Assembly (NCBI GenBank): GCA_029641185.1
Contig: JAPWGK010000006.1
Coordinates: forward strand, 372,001 to 436,000
Origin: Pseudofabraea citricarpa
Lineage: Eukaryota > Ascomycota > Leotiomycetes > Helotiales > Dermateaceae
Direction: 5' to 3'
Length of the DNA: 64,000 bases
The notes under the pieces were generated by a model. It was not told where the DNA came from. It ran no database searches and was given only the letters and a program-made list of their open reading frames with translations. Positions 18,023-62,000 of this stretch are shown piece by piece. The first letter of the stretch is position 1. Each line of letters opens with the position of its first letter. Both the position numbers and the translations under genes were made by a program.

Positions 18023-18691
18023 AGAGCAGACATGATGAGCAAACAGGACTTGCACAAAGAAAATGAGACCAGCATCAACTCACTGAGATGGAGAGAGAAT
18101 AGGTGTGGGGAGGAATATAAGGAGATATATCGAAGACGAAAGTAGACTGTTGCAGGGGAGCAACATATGTCACGCTTCGCAGAGAGAAGCACGCCCATAT
18201 TTTCAGAGATCTCATTTGTGAATATACCCTTTTATTGTCAATTTGGCAGTTATATAGCTAGCATGAGCGTATATAGTATAGGAAATTAAAACGAAAACCA
18301 CTCCAACTTCAACATCGCCGTCATTCGTTACGTTAGCGCTTTGAATTTTCACAAATAAGTCTGCACAACATCATAGTGTCCATGACTGAAGTTACTAATC
18401 AATCTTACTGTTTAAACCTTGATGTTATTTAAAGTTTCATCAGTACAAGGAAACTTTACATTTTCAGCATCGTGCTAGAAGCAAGTGAAGCAAAGTGACA
18501 AAACTGGCATGTAATCCAAATTAATAGATTTTCTTTCAGACATCCCAGTATTTACAACAGCCAAAAGTCTTAGCAGGGCTACGCATCCCAGTACACACAC
18601 TCAGAACAGTGCAAAAGCAACATGTTGCAAACCCATGCCCATCAGCATTCCAATCATATGCGCAAACATGCGGTTTGAACTCCACAAACAT
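18023..18691. other. Intergenic upstream of tRNA-Ser
   Basis: AT-rich with no ORF or repeat of note. Confidence 0.4.
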
Positions 18692-18805
18692 GTCGAGTTG
18701 CCAGAGTGGTTAATGGGTATGACTTGAATGATTGTTCCTCATCGAGGAATGTCAAATAGACATCATATGGTTTCGGCCGCGTAGGTTCAAATCCTGCACT
18801 CGACG
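18692..18805 (+). tRNA. tRNA-Ser(UGA) with a 33-nt intron
   Basis: Acceptor stem GTCGAGT pairs perfectly with ACTCGAC (18798-18804), followed by the discriminator G. The D arm is GCCAGAGTGGTTAATGGG. Anticodon stem TATGA/TCATA encloses loop CTTGAA|A with anticodon TGA at 18725-18727. The intron 18729-18761 sits at the canonical 37/38 site and forms a TTCCTC-GAGGAA hairpin. A long variable arm (GGTTTCGGCC) marks class II, and the T arm is GTAGG TTCAAAT CCTGC. It decodes UCA and wobble serine codons. Confidence 0.95.
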
Positions 18806-18810
18806 AATTC

Positions 18811-18861: not shown

Positions 18862-19367
18862 TTGCGTCGTCTGCGAGGCGGGGGCTTTTTCGCTTATCAT
18901 GCATGGTGCCTTTTCCGCACGGCTCAGCTTTCCTTTTATAGAATGCCGCTATGTGCGTCTGTGGAGTGGTGGAGTGGTAGAAACGTGTTTGCTGTATGAG
19001 ATTCGAATGGAAAGCGGAGTCTTGCTTCTGTTAATCTGGATAGAGTGTAAGCACTCTTACTAATATATTATCAAATGGCTCAAGCGCTCCTGAAGTATTT
19101 GCTGCGCTTAAAAGCTTAAACATTCTAGCCATGAATTATCCAAGTTGGAAATGTATTATGTGATAGGAAAGTCATAAAAAGATAAGTAGATGATATTATT
19201 TGAGGTTTATTTATATCTGATACAAAATTACAAGCAGAAGGCGAGGCGTGTAATTTAAGCGAGATTTAGAACCGAAAGGGGGAACTGGTCTCAACTATGC
19301 CAGAACGCCAGCCACAACAAAATTTTCCTCAGCTAGCTTATCGAAATAAAAATAAGAGTACAAAAAA

Positions 19368-19486
19368 ACATACAACAGTTGGTATTCGCTGGTGGTCACC
19401 CACCCAACTACTAATCAACCGATCTGGTGTTTATGTATGGCAGAGCGGACGGGATGCCCAGTTCTCACCAGTCTATGGTCGTATGT
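19368..19486 (-). rRNA. 5S rRNA, diverged dispersed copy
   Basis: A 119-nt gene on the minus strand. It begins ACATACGACCATAG and ends CTGTTGTATGT, pairing as helix I. It contains the hallmark GTAGTTGGGTGGGTGACC and ACCAGCGAAT blocks and is followed by a T7 terminator. Compared with the usual ascomycete 5S, the helix II strands are changed on both sides (CTGGTG with CACCAG), keeping the pairing. That suggests a structurally constrained variant rather than a decayed copy. Single 5S genes scattered through the genome are normal in filamentous ascomycetes. Confidence 0.92.
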
Positions 19487-19697: not shown

Positions 19698-22600
19698 TCA
19701 AGACATGAAATTCTTCCACTTGTTCTTCAGCCCAGCAGCTGCCTCGTCGAACTGCTGTGAACCCACTGGTTTTTGAACAAACCCCTGCAACCGGCCCATT
19801 CCAAAACTTCCCTGGGAATTACTAGCAGAAGAATTATCATAGCTGGGTGCCGAATAGCCAGTGTTATAACCTGGAGCAGGAGGATTAGGCTGTGGTGGTT
19901 GAGCATAATATGCTGGCTGTTGCGCATTGGGTGGGCTGCTCCACTGCTGGCTCCAATTCTGACCTTGGGTATTCGGTGCTGGGTTGTTGTAAACCTGGGG
20001 TTGGTAGTTCTGGTTGTAAGGTACATTTTCAGGGATTTTTGCTGGTATTAATGGAGGATCTGAGGGAGGAGATAAGTCTCCAGGTAGCCGACGTCGACCG
20101 ATTTGTAGTCCAGGAGGAAGTGAGTTCCTGATAGAAGATGGGGCTTGCTCGCCATTGTCAGCTTCGGTTGGAGGTCGACTTCCAAAGCTTCCTGCTACTT
20201 CCTTTCGTGGAACGGAGTATCTTTGAGTCACTTGTGGTCGTTCGGGTACATATACGTTTTGTTGCATCGACATTGGGCGACTAGAGTTGGAGTTTTCGGT
20301 TGTTCCGACAGGATCAGAATTGAATTGCTGCTTGAATCCCTGATACATTGAGGAGAAATGCTCATTCAGCTGTCCGCCTGAAAAGCCCAAAGACGAAGAA
20401 GGGTTGTTTTGAGAAAATAATCCTGGGTCCGAATTATTTTGATGTGATGATTCTTCACTATATAGATTTCGAACTTGGCCCTGTGAGATTATCTTGTCAG
20501 TCAACTCTTGGAATATCTTGGAATGACCTCTTTTACCTGTGTCATACTGGGCCTTGACAACTTAGCAGTCTCCAAAGCATCTGTCAGTATTTGTTTGATA
20601 CCCTCATAAACCTCAATAGCTTGAGCTTCTTCGACATCAACTTCGTCATCTTCCGAATCGTTATCATCGTCATCTTCATCTTCATCTTCATCGTTTTCAT
20701 CGTCGTCGTCACTTTCAGCTTCGTCTTCATCTTCATCCTCGTCGTCCTCATCGTCATTATCTTCATCGTTGTCGCCTTCGTACTCATTCTGTGCAATTTC
20801 TGCTTTTGATAATGGTGTCTCCAGGGCGTCCAAAATGGATTCGTATCGTTCACTCTTAGCGTCAACGTCCGCGCCATTCTCGAGAAGTAACTTGACAGCA
20901 TCAGGGTGTCGGAAGTGAACTGCGTTATACAGTGCTGCTGAAATCATTTGCGGTGAGGGCTTCTTCTCCTGATCCAGTAATACTCGCATCAGCTCCAAAT
21001 TACCCATCGAGGCAGCGGCCCCAATTGCACTTCCATAGTAACCACCCTCGAAAGTTGGATCGGCGCCGTGTTCCAGCAACATTTTGACTTCTTCTTCCGA
21101 TTCCGTGTAACATGCGACCTGGAGTACGTTGTCATACTTGCCACCTCGAAGGTTAACATCGCCCCCACTTGCAATCAAGCTCTCTAGCACAGGTATGTAG
21201 GCTTTAAGAGCAGCCCATGTTACAACACTTCCGTAATTTTCACTGACTGCGTTAACATTTGCTCCGCGTGATACTAAAGCATCCACTAGCTCTTGAGAGT
21301 CGCGGCCGACAGCGGCATGTAACGCAGTTCCGTGTTTGCCTCCTTGAGAATTTGTATCTGCATCACGGCCCAGCAGTAGCTCAACGATTTCTAGCTCTCC
21401 AGAATGTACTGCCGCTTGCAAAGCCGTGTGGAATGTGCCGCCGATAATGTTAACATCTGCTCCGTGCTCTAATAGGAGTTTGACCACTTCAATGTTGCCG
21501 TATGATGCGGCGAGCTGTAGAGGAGTATTCTTTTCGCCACCTTCCTGGTTGACATTTACGCCACTCTCAAGAAGCACTTTTATACACTCGCAATTCCCAG
21601 TCTCCGTAGCTCGGTAAAGTGCACCACCCCATTTCCCGATGACTTGAATGTTCGAACCCTTTTCGATCAAGAGCCTTACACTGTCTGTATCACCTGATGC
21701 AGCAGCCATAGTAAAAGCTATGTCTCCATCATCATCAACATAATGAACGTCAGCTCCCCGATCACAAAGGAGCTCAAGTGTTGACCGAGGCAACTCGAAT
21801 GCTGCGTGCACAAGTGTTGAACCGTTGGCGTCTCCACCTTTCACATTAACCTCTGCATTGTGCTCCAAAAGAAGTTCAAGAATATCTCCATGCCCGTAGT
21901 TTGCAGCAGCAATAAGTGGATAAGAAAGTGCGCCACCTTCGACATTTGGATCGGCTCCTTTAGAAAGTAGAAATTTAGCGATATCGAACCTGTTGGCACA
22001 ACATGCGGCCTGGAGGGGATTTCCGTATTGTCCAGATTTTGGGGCATTAATGGCTGCTCCGCGTTCAACAAGAAGTTCCACGTTAAGAAGAGACCCTTGG
22101 AATGCAGCAGCTTGAAGAGCAGTACCATAGGTATGGTCCCCATAAACTTTGTTTGGATCCGCATTGTGATCAAGAAGCATCTGCACCATCTCTTCATTGC
22201 CATCATAAGCAGCAGCTTGGAGCGCATTTCCGAACCTGTTTGTATGTTAGCTCTATTTTTCCTATGGGCGCCGTCAGATATTTTTCACGTACTCTTGACC
22301 TTCGGCATTTGGATTCGCACCCATTTCGAGTAAAACACCGACAGTTTCCACATGTTGAAAATCAGCGGCTTCGTACAAAGCATTACTTATTTCTTCAGGT
22401 GTGATATCTTTGTTGCCCAGAATCTTCAAAACATCAGGGAAGCCATTGCTAGCTGCGTACGCGAAAGCCTTGTTTCGCTTCAGAGCTGGGCATCTCTCAA
22501 CAAGTAGTTTCACACAATCAAGCTGATTATGCTCGACTGCATAGTCCAAAGCTTGGTCGTGAGAAAGCGGATCCCTGTCATGCTCAAGAATTATCTCTAC

Positions 22601-25600
22601 ACATTCCGGGTAGCCTTCCTGGGCGGCTAGTGCTAGTGGATACATGCCGTCTGAGTCTGCTATGTCAAAACGGCAACCTTGTTCAAGGAGGTATTTGACT
22701 ACTTCAGGATGGCCTTGGTAAGACGCGACACCAACTGCATTTCCAAGGTCGTACTTTCTTTCGGGGTTCAACTCAGCTCCTTTGGATAGCAGTAGTTTGA
22801 CAATCTCGAGGTTTCCAACATCTGCAGCAGCATTGAGAGGCAAATCTTCGTCGCCTCCAACTGAGTTTGGATCTGCTCCTCTGTTTAGCAGAAGCTGTAC
22901 TACAGGTAAGAATTCTTCCTCGATGGCAATGTACAATGGTGTACCACGAGCTTTGTTCAAAACATCAATCGTAGCACCCTTATCCATCAGGTACTCAGCT
23001 ACCTCAACACTTCCCGATGAGGCAGCACCATGCAGTGGCGTAAACCAAGTAATGCCATCTTCTGCAGTTCCATTGGGATCGGCACCTTCTTCACAGAGCT
23101 TTTGCACCATGTTCATACGTCCTCTTTTACATGCCCAGAACAGTGGCTGATGACCATTACTATCTGCCATGCTTAGCTCGACCCTGTGCGCTTCATCACG
23201 TAATAACAAGTCTGCAAGAGGTACATAGCCGAAGTAAGCCGCAATGTGAAGAGCTGTGAACTTGACATCGAACTCGGCCTCTGCATTCAGATCTTGATAT
23301 GATTTGGACCATTCAGCTCGTTCCTCGGATCCCAAAACCCAGAAAACTTCTTCGAGGCCGAAGCTCTCAACAATATCTGGAGTAGCTTCCAGAGCATGCT
23401 CAATCCATTTCGTATATGGATAGGTCAGTGGCATCAGAATCTGTTCATCTTTTTCTTTTTTGGATTCTACTGGCTCCAGGACCACGGTTTCGTCGGCTTC
23501 ATCTGCATCTTTATCCTCGTCATCTGCATCCTCATCCTCATCATCTGTATCTTTGTCTTCATCTTCATGTGCAGTTTCGTTTTCCACATTAGCTTTCCGC
23601 ACGGCAGCCCTCACATACTCAAAGCAACGAAGCGCAATGATCCCATGTTGAATCTGCTCGGATGGCATCGAAAGCCAATCATCGGCTTTTGATTTGAGGT
23701 AGTCTCGAACCGAATTATAACTCAGCTGAACCTTCAATTTGCCGTCATCGTTGGTAATTTGAGTGAAGGCGCCACATCTCCGCACGTGTTTCATAATAGC
23801 TTCTTCATTGTTTCGTTCTTCTTCAGGAAGATCTGCAATTATGGCAAGTTCGAACAGTGTTGGCGGTTGATAGACGAGGAGTAGAGAACGTAATATTTCC
23901 TTACTGCACTCAACATCTAGGCCCGACACGCTCAGAACCTATATGGATAAGTTAGACACGAACTAGATTTTGATGAAGACAAACAAGTATGGTTCACTTA
24001 CCCGTCGAGAAAGCTGGTCATACATAGGTCCCAGGTCAGACGGCAGGCTCTCAAGGTGTTGTCGAATAGTGCTATAGTTCGAATTGTCATATTCAAGCTC
24101 CAAGCAGACAAGATTTACCCAATCTAAATTCGACTTTCCCTCGGCTCTGAAACTTATATAACTCTTAGCATAATACTCCAACGAGCGGCTATAGCCCTTT
24201 CTATTGGATACTTCGCCAATCCTTTCAGCAACAAGTTTGCGTAGAGCATCATTCTGTTTCGTCGAATTACTTCCGTCGTCCAGATTGATACGCTCTGATC
24301 CTTGCAAAGCTTTCTGGATGTCTTGCCGTGATACACTTAGGAACAACCATTTTACGACAGGTGCACTTCCATCTTCGTCCTCTAGAACCGGAGGCTTCCA
24401 CGATTCAAATAGTTGGAGAAATTCTTTCCGAGACTCAGAATCGATCTGGTCCAGGCCACTGATCAGAAAGTAGACGGTCCCAAGTGACGGATCAACTAAT
24501 GCAGACTGTAGACAGTTCCATAAGAACGAAAGAGAACTGAAATCGAATGGCTGTGAGCCCTTTTGGCCTGGTTTAGATCTGTTTTCCTCTGTGAAGAAAT
24601 GGCGAATAAGAAAACGCTTCGTTTTCAAGAGCTGCCAGACTAACGTCTTGAGAACATTAATAGCTTTACTCTTGTTTCTATCCTGCTCATCACAGAAGAA
24701 GTATGCGAAGGCTGGCGAGTCATCTCTGTTGCGATCGACATTGGCTATTTGATCCAAGTCATCTACCATCGAGACAGCGGCCTTAGTTTTCCCCATTCCT
24801 GGACTTCCTGAGATCCAGAAGTTAAGGTGTTCTTTGGTTTCTTTCCATACTTTGTACTTTTTATCTTCCAGGATCCAGGAAGGACTTGTGCCCTGAACAG
24901 ATCTAATAGCATTGAGATCCTTCTTGAGGTTGAGAACCTCTAGGCTTTCTAGGATACGCTCTGTTCTAGAGTCGTTTAGATAATCTTGTCGTACAGCTTT
25001 TAAGATGTTATTATAATATCCCACTGCTTTTCGTTGACCAACTTACAGTCTTGTCGTGATTTCATAAGCTTGAAGGCTTTCATAAAAAGTTCCTTTAGAG
25101 TACCCGAAACATCTTTGTACTGAACGTCTTTTGGGCCTTCGAATTTGTTCATCTGGCTATGGGTGCGAGCCCAAGGGTGGTTTGGATAACCTTCGAAAGT
25201 TGATGACTTTTTGCTCGCAATAACTACCTGTTCAAGTATCAGTAAAAGCTACGCCGGAGATCATGTTACTTTCTCCCGTTTTGAATATCTTTCCAACGTC
25301 CCATTCTGGCTTTGACATGGTATTCTCTGTTTCGTAGTAACATATGAGCTCGATCGATGCCTTCCTGGCATCTCCCAGGAAGTCGTTAGCAAGATCATCG
25401 AGTTCGATCGATCCAGACTTCAAAGAGCGAAGAAGGTCATTGTATTTAGCAAGGCCGATCGTATCCCCAGCCATACTAATTAGATGAGCGAATGGCTGAG
25501 CATCTGATCCTCTGAATGGAGTTCCGAGAAATATGCAGGAGGTTATACAGCTAAATATTCCCGGATAATCCTCCGGTCGACGCTTGGCTTCCGAGACCGC

Positions 25601-27795: not shown

Positions 27796-28167
27796 TTAAA
27801 GAAGCATTTTGTGTTAACTAGCCTTATCCCATGTGACATTATACTTCATGTTACAATCCCATCTAGTACAAGTCTTCGAGTTGATGTATTATTCGCTTGA
27901 AAGCTCCTAAATTAGGCTCGGGCATAGCTCTGTGTGCTTCTTATCTCCCTAATGACAATAGTAAATTTTTAATATGAAAACAGTTTTAACAGTCCAAAGG
28001 TAAGAAGAAAATATATAAATTTCATGTAGAACAAATAAACATAAGTTATTAGTATTGTTTATAGTTACATGAGTGAACCTTACAACATATTGATTTCGCT
28101 TAACCCACAAGCGGGGCGCGGGGTAGAATGCGCACACAGTCACCGAGGCATTGTAGAAAAAAATGGC
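27796..28167. other. Intergenic downstream of the membrane protein
   Basis: AT-rich. The octamer CACCGAGG at 28141-28148 repeats the 5' acceptor strand of the adjacent tRNA-Tyr; probably chance. Confidence 0.4.
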
Positions 28168-28173
28168 AAAAAA
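28168..28173 (-). terminator. Pol III terminator of tRNA-Tyr
   Basis: On the minus strand a T6 run starts six bases after the discriminator A; a second T7 run lies at 28157-28163. Confidence 0.75.
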
Positions 28174-28199
28174 GATAGTCCCTCAGGCGCGAGTCGAAC

Positions 28200-28261
28200 C
28201 TGGTACATGTGTTAGCACATGTCTGAGAGAAATTTGTTTGTTGATTGGATGAGGCACTTAC
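28200..28261 (-). other. tRNA-Tyr intron D (62 nt, GTAAGT...TGCTAAC...CAG)
   Basis: Interrupts the 5' strand of the T stem between its fourth and fifth bases. It has donor GTAAGTG, branch TGCTAAC (CTAAC at 28211-28215) and acceptor TACCAG. The branch point sits in the loop of a perfect 7-bp hairpin (28205-28222). Confidence 0.85.
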
Positions 28262-28276
28262 GCGCGACATTCCGGT

Positions 28277-28290
28277 GATCTGAATCACAA
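28277..28290 (-). other. Canonical tRNA intron at 37/38 of tRNA-Tyr (14 nt)
   Basis: Located one base 3' of the anticodon, as in nearly all eukaryotic tRNA-Tyr genes. GTGAT pairs with ATCAC across TCAG, extending the anticodon helix as in normal pre-tRNAs. Confidence 0.82.
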
Positions 28291-28296
28291 TTACAG

Positions 28297-28350
28297 CTGG
28301 AGAAGGATGTTAGTGAGAGCTTGAGAGAGAGGAGATTGAGGAGGACTAAC
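28297..28350 (-). other. tRNA-Tyr intron B (54 nt, GTTAGT...CACTAAC...CAG)
   Basis: Interrupts the tRNA between bases 31 and 32, at the 5' edge of the anticodon loop. It is pyrimidine-rich, with branch CTAAC (28309-28313) and acceptor CTCCAG. Confidence 0.85.
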
Positions 28351-28375
28351 CCGGACGCCATAAACCAACTAGACG

Positions 28376-28435
28376 CTATTGAAGATGTTAGAAACCGTTA
28401 CAAACGTGGACGTTTGTGGTGTTGTGTTAACTTAC
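28376..28435 (-). other. tRNA-Tyr intron A (60 nt, GTAAGT...TTTCTAAC...TAG)
   Basis: Interrupts the tRNA between bases 8 and 9. It has a consensus 5' splice site GTAAGTT, branch-like CTAAC (28387-28391) and terminal AATAG. A 7-bp inverted repeat (28401-28416) lies in the middle. Confidence 0.82.
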
Positions 28436-28443
28436 ACCGAGGG

Positions 28444-29847
28444 TTTTTATTTGTTGGCGCTGTTTTCGTTATTCGACCTTTTATTATACAGCCCGGTTCG
28501 CACCAGTGGTTGCAGTGACTTTAGTGGGGCACGGCCTTCGCAATACTCACATGAAAACAATGGGAAGCATGGATTGCACTAATACTCTGAAGGCTTCCCC
28601 ATTCTGTTCCGTCCCTGATACCTCAGCCGATATCTTTAATTCTATATTTTCTTTTAGCTAGCAAAGTCGGAAGTAGGAAGACGACACCACACACAAAAGT
28701 TATCATAGCTTCTGAGCGAAAAGTAAAGTTAAGCGAGCAATAATCCAAATCAACTTGTGTTATTAGTGAATTATAAGTGTCAAGATCTATAGATCCGGTA
28801 CTATAATCAAGGAGTGTTTATATTAATAGAGAAACTATAACACTTCAAACAATCTATAGCGCAACTTAGAATTATGTACACGTATAAGGCTTTCCAAACC
28901 ATATAGTTGTATGTATTATAGGCATGCTCAGTAAAGGAACACTTAGTACGGTAGACAGTAGAAGTATGTTCAGAGTATATATAGTACAGGGTATATATAA
29001 TACAGGTATATTTGGCACAGCCACGTATCAAACCTCTAATTGAAGCCCTGCTATTACAGGATTGAACGCTTGTCAGGTGGTGTTGAAGGTTACATAGCCC
29101 GATCCTAGATTTGCCTTCTCTCATACAAGATAGCCAAGAAATTCCAAGCTGACCATGTCAACATAATATTCAAAAAATATTAATTAATTCTATTGAAAAT
29201 CATTAAAGGCACTACAATAACTAATGTCTATAAATCAAAAAGAATGGTGCTTAAGGATAAGCATAGGGTGGCATTGAGATCGAGCTTAACAAAAAAGATA
29301 ACTTGCATTTAGTTTTGAAATTGGTGGTATAAGCTAATGGGGCACTATACATAGGAACCTTTTGATTCTGAAGGGGCCCAGCTTCTCAATTTCATATGAA
29401 ACAACTGCTGAGAATACTCTTTCCACTAAGAGTTTCTACTGAAGCCACTTATGCGGCGCTTGAAAGGAAAGAAGTCGTGCTTGGGTGATGGCGGAACAAC
29501 GTGACTCCGACCCGGAAAGCACAAGACGAGGTTAAAGAACTCCGATACACACAACTTTCCTCAAACTTCTCTTTACAAACTTGTTTGCGCAAGGAAAGCT
29601 ATTTCAGTGGACAACTGTAGGCTCCAATACTATGTGCAAATCGCATGATGTTTTTGCTTCCCTTAAAGCTACATTTCTCACGGCATCCACGACTACCCCT
29701 CTATGCTCTGACGGCTAACATTTTCCGCCCTCGAGCTAATCCAGGTATGTCAAGCATAGGTAGGCCTAATAGTTTCCGTCATCGTGGTCAATTTCCCCAG
29801 CTTTTCAAGTCTATTATCACAATAAGCTAGATATTTCTCTACCCTCA
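28444..29847. other. Intergenic, AT-rich
   Basis: 1.4 kb without a supported gene. Short frames near 28807-29124 and 29645-29830 have low-complexity composition and no recognisable product. Confidence 0.45.
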
Positions 29848-54363: not shown

Positions 54364-56060
54364 ACATTTCCCCTGTGTGGTTTCTTTCGGTTTTTGATTT
54401 TGGGGATCTGCAGGCGCGAGGGAGCGGTCGGCGCAAGAAAGCAAGCGGTTCGTTCATCCTGCTCGTCTTAGATAGATCTTCATATTCCCAACGGACAACT
54501 TTAATTCTAATCCTCTAATACCATACCATCACATCACATCATGCTGCTTCATTTGCTCCTTCGATCTTCCCTACTCGCTTGCTTTCTTGCGCAATCGTAA
54601 ACCGTTGTCGTATGGGTATGGGTAGCTGTCTGGCGTATCCTGACCCTGTTGTTGTTGTTGGACAAGCTTAAAAGTAAGAAGCATCGTCTCAGAAAATTAA
54701 GCTTGCTGTCTTGTCTGTCTGTTGCACAAGTCGGAACCTAGTTGATCGGATGGGTCCGAGCCGATACGCCATGGTCCGATCAGCGAGAGCGAGCAAGGGA
54801 GTCGTCGTCGTCGCTCAAGGAGTCAAGGTTAAAGGAGCAAGTAAGTAAACCTTGTGGGAAGTCAACGACAGCGGTGCGGTACAGCAGAGAGTTCACTTCG
54901 GTTGAACGACAATCCCGAACTGTGATACAGCACTTGACACGTGGATCATCTGACGAACACGGCATCCTGCTGAGGAGATTCCTTATTCTATGAGATTTCC
55001 TTTGCCTCGTCGTTGTACCGAAGGAGGAGGCTTAACCCAAAGAGACTAAGATGCTGTTTGAATGGCGCTTTCTGGTTCGTTGGACAGACGTCGAATTTTC
55101 AGAGACCTATCTTCATACCTACCTACCCTACCTCCCCGCACATATAGATCTCACAACTCCTCCCCCCCTTTAGAAAAAGAAACACTAAGATAAAACATTT
55201 TCCCCACTTCCTGTCCAACTCTCTAGTATCGTATATCACATCACCAATACTCTAGCACGAATTAAACTCCATGTGCCTCACAGGATCCAATATCCATCAC
55301 CATCAGCCACCAAACTCAGAGAACAGGCATAAAACATTCAACGGGACTGCAGTAATTGTCCTACGACCAGTATCTCGTTCCTATTCGAAATCTTGTCGTC
55401 TCCTCTACCTCGGAATGTGTACTTGTAAAGGTGCGCCTGTCTAATCTTTTTTGGTCTACGGTTATCATTATCGTAGAGGGAAAACGGTGCATGATTCTAC
55501 TCCTCTCAGCACAGAGTTATTTCTTGGATACTCTCTTGGCCTTTCGCAAAAAATAAAGAAAGAACGAGGAGAAAAGAAGAATGTCGTAGGGGAAATGAGG
55601 AGGAAAATAGAGACCTGCCTATAGCCACGCAGAACCAATCAAGTCTCTCACGTCTAGTCAAAATATAGTGCGAGAATTATCTTAAAAAGCTTCGCATAAG
55701 GCTAGCTATCTACTGTACAGCACGAAGAGAAACGCCTTCGCCATATTTATTTTTTCGCTTCCCCCATTTCCAGATAACCCAAGGAACGTCTGTTTCCAAT
55801 GGCTCGAGGACGACCTGCACTTCGCCAAGAGACCATCTGCCACAAGATGAACCATAGAGTATCTCTGCTTCTCAATCTTTGACCCAACTTACGTAACCAG
55901 CCAGAGTAATGAATTGAATCTGTCATTGGCAATGACACCCACGTTTCAAAAATTAAAAACGAAAATAACTATCGACGCCACCAAATGCTGATCAAAGCCT
56001 GTCTATGCATGAGAGCTCGTAAATCGAAGAGAAAGAAGACGTATGCAAATTTAGGCAAAC
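54364..56060. other. Intergenic, convergent 3' regions
   Basis: 1.7 kb between the protease and TOM1 stops. Pyrimidine-rich near 55130-55210. Small frames at 54742-54993 and 55356-55556 show no family resemblance. Confidence 0.45.
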
Positions 56061-59000
56061 TTAGGCAAACCCAAAGTATTCGCTTCCGGCAGTAATAGCG
56101 GTAAGGACTTGTTGACGGAGTGCTTCGTAGCTCTCGTATTCGGGGAGGTCAAGCTCTGCGTTGTGGTCAGTACTAATTCAAACAAGAAGAATAATGTGAA
56201 CTTACGGTTGAAACAAGTATGTGAGCTCGGAAGACGGTCTTTATTACCATAGTCGCGATGAATGTTGAAGCGACTGAAACCGTTCATGCCCTCTAACTCC
56301 TTGAAGCCGTTCAGAGGTACCTTGCTAGTTCCTGTAACGAATTGCAGTAACTTGGCACGCTCTTCTTTGTCATAGGAACGAACGGCTCTCCAGAACCACT
56401 GGATCTGAGGAGAAGAGCCAGAATAGTTATGGTACTCAGTATTACTCTTCCAATCATCAACATCGATTTCAGGCAGACCGGAGATGAGTAACTCGAGTTC
56501 CTGCTCATTGAAAATTGCCACAAGCTCGGCAGGAATGATTTCGTGGAAACCTTTCAAAAAGTTAGCATATGGGGTAACCAAAGATGATGATGAGAACTTA
56601 CCTTTTAAGAACTCGTCCAACTGCTCCTTAACAGATCCAGTGAGCTTGAACTCAACCATCAAGCGAACATATTCTTGCTTGTTCTCCTCAGTTACAGGGA
56701 TGTTGCGACCATTCTCGATGAAATCAATGGTTTCCACAACACCAAACTTGTCGTTGTCAACAGAGAAGGTTTCAGTAATAATGTCGGTGATGTCGTTCTC
56801 TAGCATCCAAACAAGAGACTTGTAATAGTCTGGGTCTAGCGATTCCATGTCTTTGAGAGATACAGATTTGCCCAATATGCGCTTGTAGACTGCGCGACTG
56901 AAATGACAGTCCAGCACTCGGCCTTCGTAAAGAGCCTTGCCAATAATGCGACCAATGAACTTAAAGAACATCAGATGCTCTTCATTAATGCCACTAAGTT
57001 GATTGGGATGGAAAGTAGTGCGATCTGAGGAGACTGGGATGAAAAGAGCATAGCCAGGGTCAAACATCTGTCTTGATAGGACCTGGAACCATTCTCGTGT
57101 GACACCTCCAGCATCAACACCCTCCTCGCCATGAAATCGAATACTGAGCTTGCCATATTTCATCTGATCACCCGTCTGGAAATAAAGTGACTTGAAAGAG
57201 TCGTGGAAGACTTGGTCGCGGCGTACCGACAGTTGCAGTGGAGGATAAGATTGTCTGGTCTGAAGACTTCGACTATGGATGCTTCGGCTGAAGTAGTTAC
57301 GCTTGTTGTCAAATTCAAGTACCTTTGGATTCTTGACGAGCAAGGAGAAAGTACCAGACATAAGCTTAGGTGTATGCCGTACGAGGTCATTTAGAATCTT
57401 GCGATGTTCCTCCGTAAAAGTAAAGAACAGACTCTCCATTCTAGATTCCGGAGGGGGGCTGGTGAGCATCATCTCTTTGCTTGATTGCGATTTTGAGGCT
57501 GGCGCATCCTTGAGGGTCGTGTTCTTGCAAACGACCATTAAGGCCTCAATCAGTGGTAGGAGGATCGTAGCCACATTAAGCATGTGTTCACGTTGTCTAA
57601 TGGCACTAAGGCAAGCACTGAGCTTCTCCCACATGGGTCCGAACGTTGAGTTTTCGTAGAGAGAAGACAGCAGATCTTGCTTCTCGGATGACTCATTGTC
57701 ACCCTCCGGCTTCTTGTCTTTGTTTAACTTTGGGTCGAAAAGGTGGTCTAGGGCGGTAAGAACACGAAGGAGCTTGTTCTGATCAGAACCACCTGGGGAG
57801 AATTTTGCGAGTGCAACTCCTTGAATTTCAGTGCCCGTGGATGCTTTTTGAATCTGTGGAAGAAGGTCTTCAAGATCAACGAGAATGACTTCTCCGAGCT
57901 CTTGTGCTTTGATAATAAGCTCGCGGCCGAATACTGCCTTGGCACCGGGGATGGTGGAGAGATTCTTGATAGTTGAGATTGTTTCGCGGAATGTCTTCGA
58001 GCTACATTCACGAGCAACAAAAATGTTGATCACAAGCTTGAGGTTGTGGTCTGGAACAACAGGTGGTGAGAGTGGTCGAGGCTTCTTCTCATGTTCTTTC
58101 TTCTCCGCGTCGAGCTTTGTTGCAGACTCGGGAACAACAGCACTAGGTTCTGCCTCGGCAGATGGTTCAATAGTCGATGCAACTGGAGGGTCCTGTAATT
58201 CCCCAGCAGTTTGCTCGGATGCTTGCTCATTGTTGGCTGTCTCCGTATCATTGGGTTGGGCTTCAGAAGCCGCAGCCGTAGCGGCAGCTTCCTCGGCCTT
58301 CTTGGCCGCCTCTTCCTCTGCCTCTTTTTGCTTACGTTCCATAGTTTGAAGAGGTTGTGTGATCATACTAAGCAAGGTCGAAAGAGACTCCATCACCGAT
58401 GAGCTTTCCATTATGAGGCCACGGTCCAAAAGGCTGAGTAGAGAATTGATTGCGTATCGGGTGGCTTTTGACTCCTTTGACTCCTTCAACTCCTTGCCTT
58501 TGCCCTTCTTGCTTAAGCTACGCTTCAAACTAAGTGTGGCATCATGCTCGGTCAAAAAGAACGAGGCGACATGTGGATTCGCTTGGGCAAGATTAAACAA
58601 AGCGAGCAGGCACTGCTGGACAAGCATAAGGGGGGATGTCTCAGAAGTGATATGGGCGACGGTCGAGGGTGCCGCAGGTACCGGAGTGCCAGTGACTGTT
58701 CTCTTCAAGGTGCTTGGTGTCTTGGCATGATCTTTGGGTTGTCTGGCTTTAAGTGACAGTTGTGCAAAGCTACGCTCGACGGCACTCATATCAGCGCTGC
58801 CATCTTGGAGAATATGAAGAAGCGTGCTGATGACTTCAGCTCGATTTTGTTTATTGGTGGAAACATGCTGGAGAACTGAAGTGAGTGTATTACGAAGAGT
58901 AGTGTGCTGGAAAATAAACATCAGGCGCAACAGAGTAGCAACACCAGCCTTGTCGAGCATTTGAACCACAGGTCGTCGTATAGGTCTACTGGCTTCCGCG

Positions 59001-62000
59001 GGTGGTGGACCTCCAGAACGGCGGGCCAGATGGCTGGTTCTACCTTGATGGGCTCGATCCTCTCGCTGGAAAGCACGAGCTTGAGCTGCGAGATCAGGAG
59101 GAAGTTGAGCGATTATCTCCTCATCTTGCTCCATAAGGACTTGCTGTCGCAATGCTGGGGGGAAGGTCGCTAGAATGCTGGCAGGATCCATGTCAAGTGC
59201 TGGGTTGCCACCGCCATTTGCAGCTGCCTGTCGACGTTGCTCATCGCGTTCACGGCGACGTCGGTCTTGTCTCTCCTGCTGGATGATTTCGTCACGAATA
59301 TCATCAGGTAGGGCATCCAGGAATTCTTGGTCGATCTCTGAGGGTTGGGCACCGGTTGCGGCAGCTTGTGAACGTCTTTCAGCGACGGCAGACATAATAA
59401 CCTCTTCCCGAATCTCTTCTGGCAGTTCAGCAAGGAACTCAGCATCGATGCCAAGATCGGTGATGTCGAAGGGGTTTCCGCGAATAATTGTAGTCACCCT
59501 AGGTCTGTCCTCAGTAGAGGATTCTCCTGCATCGCCAGAAGGTCCACTGTCACTCGCGGTATCCATTGCGTCTGTTTCTGTCTCGGTCACGATAGGCTCT
59601 CCAGATTCGTGGTTGGAGTTGTTGGCACTTTGGGCAGCAAGCTCTTCGGCAGCAGCTTTCTCGGCGGCTTCCCGCTCTTCGGCCTCCTTCTTCTCTCTTG
59701 CTATCTTCTCTTCAGCCTCTCGGGCTTCTCGGGCGAGACGGTCTTCTTCTGCACGCTTCTTGGCTTCCTCTTCGGCCTTCCGAGTTCGTTCGGCCTCAGC
59801 TGCCTTCAATGCCTTGTCTGCCTCGATCGCCGGAGGAACCAACACAGCTTGAATGGCATTTATGACATCCATAGCACGCTCATGGTGGTTAACACCAAAC
59901 AAAATCTTAGCTTCATCAACCCATCGAGCGGCGGTAGTTTGTGGGGCAAAGGCAATAGCAGAGGCGGGGTCAACCGTCTCTCTTCGTGGCTCATAACGTG
60001 TACCTCGAGGCATGCCGAACATGGCTTGGAGATCTCGTGGGATCTCTCCGGAGCCGCTAATGTGGAATTGTAGAGCTTGCCCACCACGGGTCGTTAGAGT
60101 ACCTGGGAGCGGTAAGGTTCTGATCAAATCGTTCAGGAGAGCAGCGGGGCCCTCACCGAAACCATGTCGCCCACCAAGATTAAGGTCTAGAAGATCTGGA
60201 GCATGGATCCAGCCACCGGGGACAGAGATACGCGCAGCGCCTTGACCGTTGGCACCAGTAGAGTTATCTCGTTGAAGTAGGGGGTTGACACCGTCGTCGG
60301 CGGTTCGTGGAGGAGGCCCAGGCCTATGCGAGCGATACGAGGGCCGATAATCCGGAACTGGATTGCTGAGGTTAGCTCTGAATCTAGAAAGTGATTCTTC
60401 AATGGAGCGGATATCTTCGGTCACAGCGGCAATTTGGTTTGACAAGCTGTTGACGGCGTCCAAAAACTGAGCTTCACGCGATTGGGGAGACATACCGCCT
60501 AGTGGATCGCGTGGACCCCCAGGGAAAACAGGGAAGGGGTTTAAGCCGCGTGGTCTACGATGACTGATAATCATAGGTTGATCAGGTTCACCTTCCCAGG
60601 CGAAAGCGCCAGGTGGAGGACCATCTTGAATAGCATCAATCACCATCCTTATAGAGAAACTAACAAAAATAGCTTACCTGGATAACCGTCGAAAAGCATC
60701 TCATCGTCCATTTCATCTTCTTCGTCTTCCTCGTCTAAAATCGAATTAATGGGTAGAACAAGCAAATCTGTGTCACGGATTACTGACCTTCTTCATCAAC
60801 CTCTTCCAAATACTCAGCTAGCTGCTGGTCTTCGTCTCCTAGGCCCTCAGCGTCCATACGCTGGAAAATTTCCATAGCATCATCGTGATCATCAACGCCG
60901 AGAGCTCGGACAAGATTACCCAAGGGGCCATTTTGCATAACGTCCATAGCCTGACGGGCTTGCTCGTCCTCGTCGCCTTGACCTTCATAATCTTCCTCGT
61001 CGTCTTCGTCACTCTCCCAGCCTTCTGCTTCGTCGTCCTCGCCGACTTCATGGACGTTACCAAGCTCATCGATGATTTCAACACGGGCATCGTCGTCTTC
61101 CATATCGTCCGAGTCTTCTTCATCCTCATCGTCATCTGACGCTCCGGAGGATCCTTCAGTGTCTTCATCGTCGTCCTCAACCATAACTTCAACGTCCATA
61201 CCATGATCACCATCAAGGCCTTCGATAGGACCCATTCCATCAATGTCTTCTTCATCACTGATGTTGTCTTCGTCATCGTCCTCTATCTCTTCATCATACT
61301 CCATCCCTTCTTCATCGTATTCGCCCTCGTACATTTCCTCGTCATCTATTATTATTATTAGTAAAAGATTTTGTATTTGATATCATGGGGCTAACTACCG
61401 TCTTCAGAGGATGAGGACTCTTCATCTCTACCAGCTTCAAACATGCCAAGGGTCGAGTTTCTGAACAAATCGGGCGTTTCCTCACGTTCATCTTCGTTAT
61501 CAGATACAGATGTTGCAGACAGGATCTCATCCGCATCGTCTTCGCCTGGTGGGGTAGAGATGAGGCCGTGCTCGCTTAGAATCTGGGCTGTTGATGTGAG
61601 AGTCTTGAGCGGACGCAGGATGTATTTCACAGCTCTCTTTGCTTGAGGGAAATTAAGATCGATGTCTGCGATTGAACTGGTAAGGGCTGCAATGTAACCC
61701 TTTTCAAACATGATCCGCTGCAGTTGCGTCTGGTTTCTGAGATTTAGTGTGTCGTGTCTGTCCTGTCTCTCTTTGCCAGTCATGATATGATTCATAAGTT
61801 CGGAGAGGGAAAGCATTCGGGCATACTTGGCATCGAGAGGCTCGGGTGAGATGCTAGCTTCTTTGTATGCCTTGAGAATGTTCTCTAACACGAAACGTCG
61901 GACAAACTGAAGGTCAGGTTCATCGTCGCCATCTGAGCTGTCGCGATCTTTGTCCAGCGGCATTTCCCCGGTCTTGGTAAGTAGTGCAGTGATAACAGCA

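Follow-up and report, generated by a model that had tools for sequence, protein, structure and literature searches.

The excision of tRNA introns and the removal of spliceosomal introns are normally the work of separate machines, and an ordinary eukaryotic tRNA-Tyr gene carries one intron, located between positions 37 and 38. The locus described here raises the question of whether the spliceosome can take part in making an essential tRNA. It lies in a stretch of 64,000 nucleotides, which we will call the window, and the initial annotation of this stretch described a tRNA-Tyr gene broken by three introns of the spliceosomal type in addition to the usual one.

The neighbors of the gene give some indication of its host. 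A HECT protein encoded at 56051-60673 is 94% identical to a protein of Phlyctema vagabunda over 92% of the part searched, and the PRPP synthetase of the window finds its best match in Coleophoma crateriformis; on these matches we take the host to be a fungus of the Helotiales. The window also harbors a tRNA gene with a long variable arm and a 33-nt intron at 18691-18806 on the forward strand, called Ser-tga by ARAGORN, and a dispersed 5S rRNA gene at 19367-19486 on the reverse strand. A region with NACHT-like (NPHP3_N) and ankyrin-repeat sequences is divided among three long open frames (581, 554 and 359 codons from stop to stop) at 20501-25042, also on the reverse strand.

Anatomy of the interrupted tRNA-Tyr gene

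The tRNA-Tyr(GUA) gene occupies 28179-28443 on the reverse strand, where 265 nt of unspliced sequence give a 75-nt tRNA once the introns are removed. Exon 1 (28436..28443, 8 nt) supplies tRNA positions 1-8, namely the 5' acceptor strand and U8, and is followed by a GT-AG intron at 8/9 (28376..28435, 60 nt, GTAAGT..CTAAC..AG). Exon 2 (28351..28375, 25 nt) supplies positions 9-31, the D arm and 5' anticodon stem, and ends at a second GT-AG intron at 31/32 (28297..28350, 54 nt, GTTAGT..CTAAC..AG). Positions 32-52 come from exon 3 (28262..28296, 35 nt), which itself holds a 37/38 intron of the ordinary tRNA-endonuclease type (28277..28290, 14 nt according to ARAGORN, and 11-12 nt in the paralogues). 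The third GT-AG intron, at 52/53 (28200..28261, 62 nt, GTAAGT..CTAAC..AG), precedes exon 4 (28179..28199, 21 nt), which provides positions 53-73 with the T loop, the 3' acceptor strand and A73. A run of six T residues, a candidate RNA polymerase III terminator, is found 5 nt past the mature 3' end (28168..28173), and the motif CAACAAA is present in the 5' flank (28450..28456). Position numbers and intron sites in the tRNA-Tyr genes were assigned by hand.

With the three GT-AG segments of 60, 54 and 62 nt taken out, ARAGORN recognizes the joined exons as tRNA-Tyr(gta), of 75 bases once the 14-nt intron is also cut out, and so reproduces the assembly that had been proposed. The identity elements listed for it, C1-G72, A73, a five-base variable loop and the GUA anticodon, are all present in the joined exons. 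The accompanying statement that every helix is paired is slightly too strong: it stands for all other pairs, but position 13-22 of the D stem is a T-T apposition, the sole unpaired helix position in the ARAGORN fold. Together with a C at position 9, this mismatch counts against the gene. In a profile made from sequence only, which is not a covariance model, the joined exons score 19.5 bits, lower than the 36 other tRNAs of the genome from which the profile was built (30.6-54.1 bits, these being scored in-sample) and higher than the unspliced gene (3.3) or any of 200 shuffles (at most 6.7).

Chance assembly and visibility to tRNA finders

Since GT..AG segments are common, we asked how often they assemble a tRNA at random. 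A splice-aware scan collected segments of the form GT[AT]NG..CTRAY..AG, 40-120 nt in length, on both strands, joined the flanks of compatible sets of one to three segments and passed the spliced products to ARAGORN. In the window, 404 segments gave 539 sets, and a single tRNA emerged, the tRNA-Tyr at 28179-28443. When 150 samples were drawn from a first-order Markov model of the window, their 102,875 sets, including 6,877 triples, gave no tRNA. These two results rule out assembly from random GT..AG segments and bear out the earlier judgment that chance is very unlikely.

The prediction that standard tRNA finders would overlook the gene also proved right for the window, as neither ARAGORN nor Rfam reports it. 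ARAGORN returns no tRNA from the unspliced 265-nt gene, and Rfam gives no tRNA match at 28000-28600 even with E values up to 10. In the available text on tRNAscan-SE 2.0, noncanonical introns are sought with the archaeal model. Finders that permit only an intron at 37/38 can thus call an essential tRNA missing in some fungi.

Four interrupted tRNA-Tyr genes

A 21-nt probe covering the T loop and the 3' acceptor strand matches the 44-Mb genome at four places when up to three mismatches are allowed, and a DNA query with the whole gene returns the same four. All four of these tRNA-Tyr loci are interrupted, by three, three, two and two GT-AG introns, respectively. Besides the window gene, which is located on contig C40, there is a copy on C2 (814562-814815) with introns at 8/9, 31/32 and 46/47, and two copies on C23, one near 2207075 and one near 2233220, each with introns at 31/32 and 46/47. 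The 31/32 intron is therefore common to all four, and the 8/9 intron is shared by the window and C2 copies and missing from both C23 copies, which read straight through the site, so that the first exon junction of the window gene can be seen in uninterrupted form. From the joined exons, ARAGORN obtains a cloverleaf with GUA, C1-G72 and A73 in every copy.

The mature tRNA is identical in three of the copies, and in that of C2 both bases of one T-stem pair are replaced, a compensating substitution. Over the 75 positions the exons differ at zero to two, while intron identity ranges from 49 to 90% and flank identity from 33 to 54%. The 31/32 introns are 49-71% identical, with several pairs falling within the range of shuffled sequences (mean 0.44, maximum 0.58, 60 shuffles). 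This contrast between conserved exons and diverged introns and flanks is consistent with selection for the spliced product. In the window gene, the last intron lies six bases further on than its counterparts at 46/47 with the exon sequence unchanged, and resembles them at 36-41 of 52-56 ungapped columns; the shift from 46/47 to 52/53 looks like intron sliding.

Several further features were noted within these introns. In all four genes the last intron places its CTAAC branch site in a predicted hairpin, with a CTAA loop and a stem of 6-7 bp (28200-28261 in the window), that still pairs despite base changes; covariation is suggestive yet weak, with two pairs changed on both sides among three sequences and 56 of 500 shuffles doing equally well. 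The two 8/9 introns have a predicted hairpin in common, in which ACAAA[C/T]G pairs with C[G/A]TTTGT. Hairpins of this sort, one of which surrounds the branch point, may be adaptations that help such short and structured transcripts of polymerase III to be spliced. The 37/38 introns of all four genes contain TTCAG, a possible alternative spliceosomal acceptor whose use would delete the anticodon. An exact scan of viral contigs for relatives gave no match.

The class of the introns

Across the seven interrupted tRNA genes that were seen in the genome, all 14 GT-AG introns begin with GT[AT]NG, contain CTAAY (CTAAC or CTAAT), end with AG and measure 50-62 nt, and in each the branch A is found 11-14 nt before the intron end. 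For the tRNA-Thr and tRNA-Cys genes the scan itself demanded GT..AG and the branch motif, whereas the tRNA-Tyr and tRNA-Lys genes were found by exon probes with no such demand. The mRNA introns of the window's own protein genes are similar: the six of them, four from the PRPP synthetase and two from the HECT gene, are 50-65 nt long, with CTRAY and a branch A 11-18 nt from the end. Five of these are pinned by protein homology, and the upstream HECT intron was placed by eye. In fungi the branch site is close to CTRAY and is located 6-36 nt before the acceptor, the distance being that given in PMC5832005.

The introns are also present or absent with precision, the 8/9 intron being found in two of four tRNA-Tyr genes and both GT-AG introns in one of two tRNA-Lys(UUU) genes. 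The assignment to the spliceosomal class made in the initial annotation is strengthened on several counts, as GT-AG introns recur in three paralogues, at identical or shifted sites of the same tRNA, the 8/9 junction is intact in two paralogues and three other tRNA identities are also affected.

Two other classes were considered. Self-splicing introns are out, as Rfam finds no group I or group II intron in the window at the gathering threshold, nor any at 28000-28600 with E up to 10, and the tRNA introns are no longer than 62 nt. Mobile introns of the ‘introner’ kind are likewise out: the whole-gene search of the genome matches only the four tRNA-Tyr loci, which means that copies of their introns elsewhere are not detectable by the search used.

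The search for an uninterrupted tRNA-Tyr

Several intact copies elsewhere had been named in the initial annotation as part of what would speak against the gene. Listing the nuclear tRNA-Tyr genes of the 44-Mb genome with the 21-nt probe (up to three mismatches) and the whole-gene DNA query yielded no uninterrupted gene among the four loci found. A pattern running from the D arm to the anticodon of an intact tRNA-Tyr, with up to two mismatches, gave 19 matches, all inexact, compared with 11 in its control; the best of the 19, the sole one fetched, contains no tRNA. With a query that included yeast tRNA-Tyr, the genome was matched only at the tRNA-Phe part of that query. The mitochondrial contig, C36, has a tRNA-Tyr of its own. 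A tRNA family search of the genome produced 1716 candidates, of which 63 were scored. The case for the absence of an intact nuclear tRNA-Tyr is strong but not complete, because the searches cover the genome in part and leave room for a divergent intact gene or one in an assembly gap.

Interruptions in other tRNA genes

The T-arm probe finds two genes for tRNA-Lys(UUU). One, at C41:413037-413127, has only an intron of the 37/38 type, and the other, at C2:586477-586674, has the same exons with GT-AG introns at 9/10 and 46/47, so the C41 gene displays both exact junctions of its interrupted sister without a break. In a tRNA-Thr(AGU) gene at C10:275566-275692, the D loop is interrupted by a GT-AG intron of 55 nt and the T stem contains one mismatch. 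A tRNA-Cys-like gene on C39, from 2203705, has a 50-nt GT-AG intron at 61/62 and a C at position 33, given which it may be decaying. Both the tRNA-Thr and tRNA-Cys genes were chance finds, in sequence that had been retrieved for another purpose. Contig C39 also carries a tRNA-Ser (L118) that is partial, its 5' half being absent within the stretch, and it looks truncated.

In all, the analysis came upon seven tRNA genes with GT-AG interruptions, compared with 74 distinct ARAGORN calls in the fetched nuclear loci, although this is no unbiased rate because tRNA-Tyr was sought on purpose. Identical copies are counted once in the 74, and three of the calls are interrupted genes misread (two tRNA-Tyr and the tRNA-Thr). 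A pattern of branch site, AG and T arm matched the genome 43 times, compared with 60 for the reversed-pattern control. Eight of the 43 are known tRNAs, namely three tRNA-Tyr, the tRNA-Lys and four genes judged by their location to be ordinary tRNA-Ile or tRNA-Glu; 20 of the other 35 were retrieved, and there is no tRNA among them, spliced or unspliced. The corresponding D-arm pattern matched eight times against 45 in the control, with only the tRNA-Lys convincing, and three of the other seven (L117, L124 and L125) were fetched and yielded no tRNA. Among 100 listed B-box places of a total of 325, 31 lie inside 30 fetched stretches, which gave four further ARAGORN calls, none interrupted by a GT-AG intron. 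These outcomes suggest that interrupted tRNA genes of this kind are few.

Other features of the tRNA gene complement were also observed. ARAGORN places an anticodon-loop intron in 45 of the 71 distinct ordinary tRNA calls, even in those for Asp, Glu, Gln, Phe and His (L071-L075, L113, L132-L136, L156 and others). A tRNA-like gene family (L021, L055, L059 and L063) has GTGGTACAGTTGGTTA in common and anticodon loops that are unclear or odd. Four clustered B-box places at C7:80000-82900 (L081 and L082) include two tRNA-like genes whose variable arm is long and whose identity is unclear. A tRNA-Arg array of three TCG genes and one ACG gene occurs as mirror-image copies at C12:2624-3940 and C12:113956-115272, about 112 kb apart and one of them near the contig end; these arrays form an inverted duplication.

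Transcription and processing

All seven interrupted genes are followed by a run of six or seven T residues, with no run of five before it. For six of them it comes within 24-38 nt of the last intron, and for tRNA-Thr within 74 nt; runs of five are expected 0.03 times per 25 nt. Each gene also has CAACAA within 90 nt upstream of its first intron, where 0.04 occurrences are expected per 70 nt. In the window copy the A box is split by intron 1, and a contiguous B-box-like GGTTCGACTC is found at 28191-28200, its first G being contributed by the intron. The initial annotation had offered two options, a spliced tRNA precursor or an RNA polymerase II transcript. The terminal T runs and the lack of internal ones favor the former, as a product of RNA polymerase III, and the latter is disfavored. 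One point against is the tRNA-Lys gene, in which TTTT occurs twice, within an intron and at the anticodon.

The locus is very probably a working nuclear gene for tRNA-Tyr(GUA), one of the four found, all with spliceosomal introns. RNA polymerase III would make a precursor that stops at the T6 run, and the spliceosome would take out the two or three GT-AG introns, allowing the cloverleaf to form. The tRNA endonuclease and ligase would then remove the 11-14-nt 37/38 intron, and the ends would be trimmed. These last two steps, endonuclease and ligase action on the 37/38 intron of tRNA-Tyr followed by end trimming, are established elsewhere. As every nuclear tRNA-Tyr gene found in this filamentous fungus is interrupted, the cell apparently must rely on the machinery that splices its mRNAs for the production of a tRNA.

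Three other explanations have to be set against this one. Spliceosomal introns usually occur in polymerase II transcripts, and no internal element other than a B box is clearly identified here, so the introns could be spliceosomal and yet reside in an RNA polymerase II transcript, or the tRNA could be processed out of a longer host transcript. The T6-T7 ends and the upstream CAACAA of all seven genes speak against this, as does the occurrence of T4 in four of the six mRNA introns but in only one of the 14 tRNA introns, and we consider it improbable. The tRNA splicing endonuclease might instead cut the introns at bulge-helix-bulge motifs, as it does with the ectopic introns of archaea and of the red alga Cyanidioschyzon merolae; multiple and ectopic tRNA introns of the endonuclease type are described in the available text of two reports (PMC3978253; PMC9602550). 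The 37/38 intron of the present genes is itself most likely of the endonuclease kind. None of the 14 GT-AG introns forms the central helix of 4 bp where it would be expected, in a crude test with assumed offsets, no bulge energetics and no positive control, and the best candidate forms three of four pairs even when both sides are allowed to slide by one. Moreover, all 14 possess GT, CTAAY and AG spaced as in spliceosomal introns, signals for which the endonuclease would not select, and this makes its involvement very improbable.

It could also be argued that the interrupted genes are pseudogenes or silent, and that an intact tRNA-Tyr exists elsewhere, missed by the searches or absent from the assembly. 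The partial coverage of the genome, the decayed look of the tRNA-Cys copy and the truncated look of the partial tRNA-Ser lend this something. Against it, the same 75-nt product is kept at four loci with diverged introns and flanks and one compensating pair change, the T-arm-and-acceptor probe finds only those loci and the best of the inexact matches to the D-arm-to-anticodon pattern, the one fetched, holds no tRNA, and of the three alternatives this is the least probable. The reading of a working gene, transcribed by polymerase III and spliced, is the one we retain.

Comparison with known systems

Spliceosomal introns are known in the U6 snRNA genes of fission yeast and some basidiomycete yeasts, and introns of the mRNA type also occur in nuclear rRNA genes of fungi. 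The U6 introns, like those described here, place an mRNA-type intron in an RNA polymerase III product, but U6 is no tRNA, and here there are two or three introns per 75-nt product together with an endonuclease intron. The rRNA introns similarly lie within a structural RNA gene, but rRNA is a long RNA transcribed by RNA polymerase I. With the ordinary eukaryotic tRNA-Tyr gene, the present genes share the tRNA and the 37/38 intron, and they differ in the additional GT-AG introns at 8/9, 31/32 and either 46/47 or 52/53.

The introns of fungal U3 snoRNA genes, as given in the available text of PMC5832005, are of the GT-AG type with RCTRAC, occur in the vast majority of the Pezizomycotina analysed, nearly always singly and mostly in one 5' stem-loop, slide, and are found in genomes that hold both intron-bearing and intronless paralogues. 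To that extent the tRNA genes resemble them, with GT-AG introns, interrupted and intronless paralogues in one genome and apparent sliding, and depart from them in that the host is a tRNA and that tRNA-Tyr has two or three GT-AG introns rather than nearly always one. The nuclear tRNA genes of C. merolae and those of archaea can likewise carry several introns outside 37/38 in one gene, but these are described, in the text available, as cut by the tRNA endonuclease at bulge-helix-bulge motifs (PMC3978253; PMC4090602), in contrast to the spliceosomal signals found here. Among the matches listed in a search of open-licence literature, the text available describes no nuclear tRNA gene with spliceosomal introns, and the novelty is provisional to that degree. 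The class of intron is ordinary; its location in an essential tRNA is the unusual part.

An essential tRNA that, as far as can be seen, is makeable only via the spliceosome would cross the divide between tRNA splicing and mRNA splicing. It would show the spliceosome coping with exons of 8-35 nt in a polymerase III transcript that is folding, and would make the gain, loss and sliding of introns visible in a molecule of known structure. It is likely that in this lineage the supply of an essential tRNA is wholly dependent on the spliceosome, with every cytosolic tRNA-Tyr passing through two machines, the spliceosome and then the tRNA endonuclease, and with introns gained, lost and slid in genes for Tyr, Lys, Thr and Cys tRNAs. 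If this is true, translation would be directly tied to splicing capacity.
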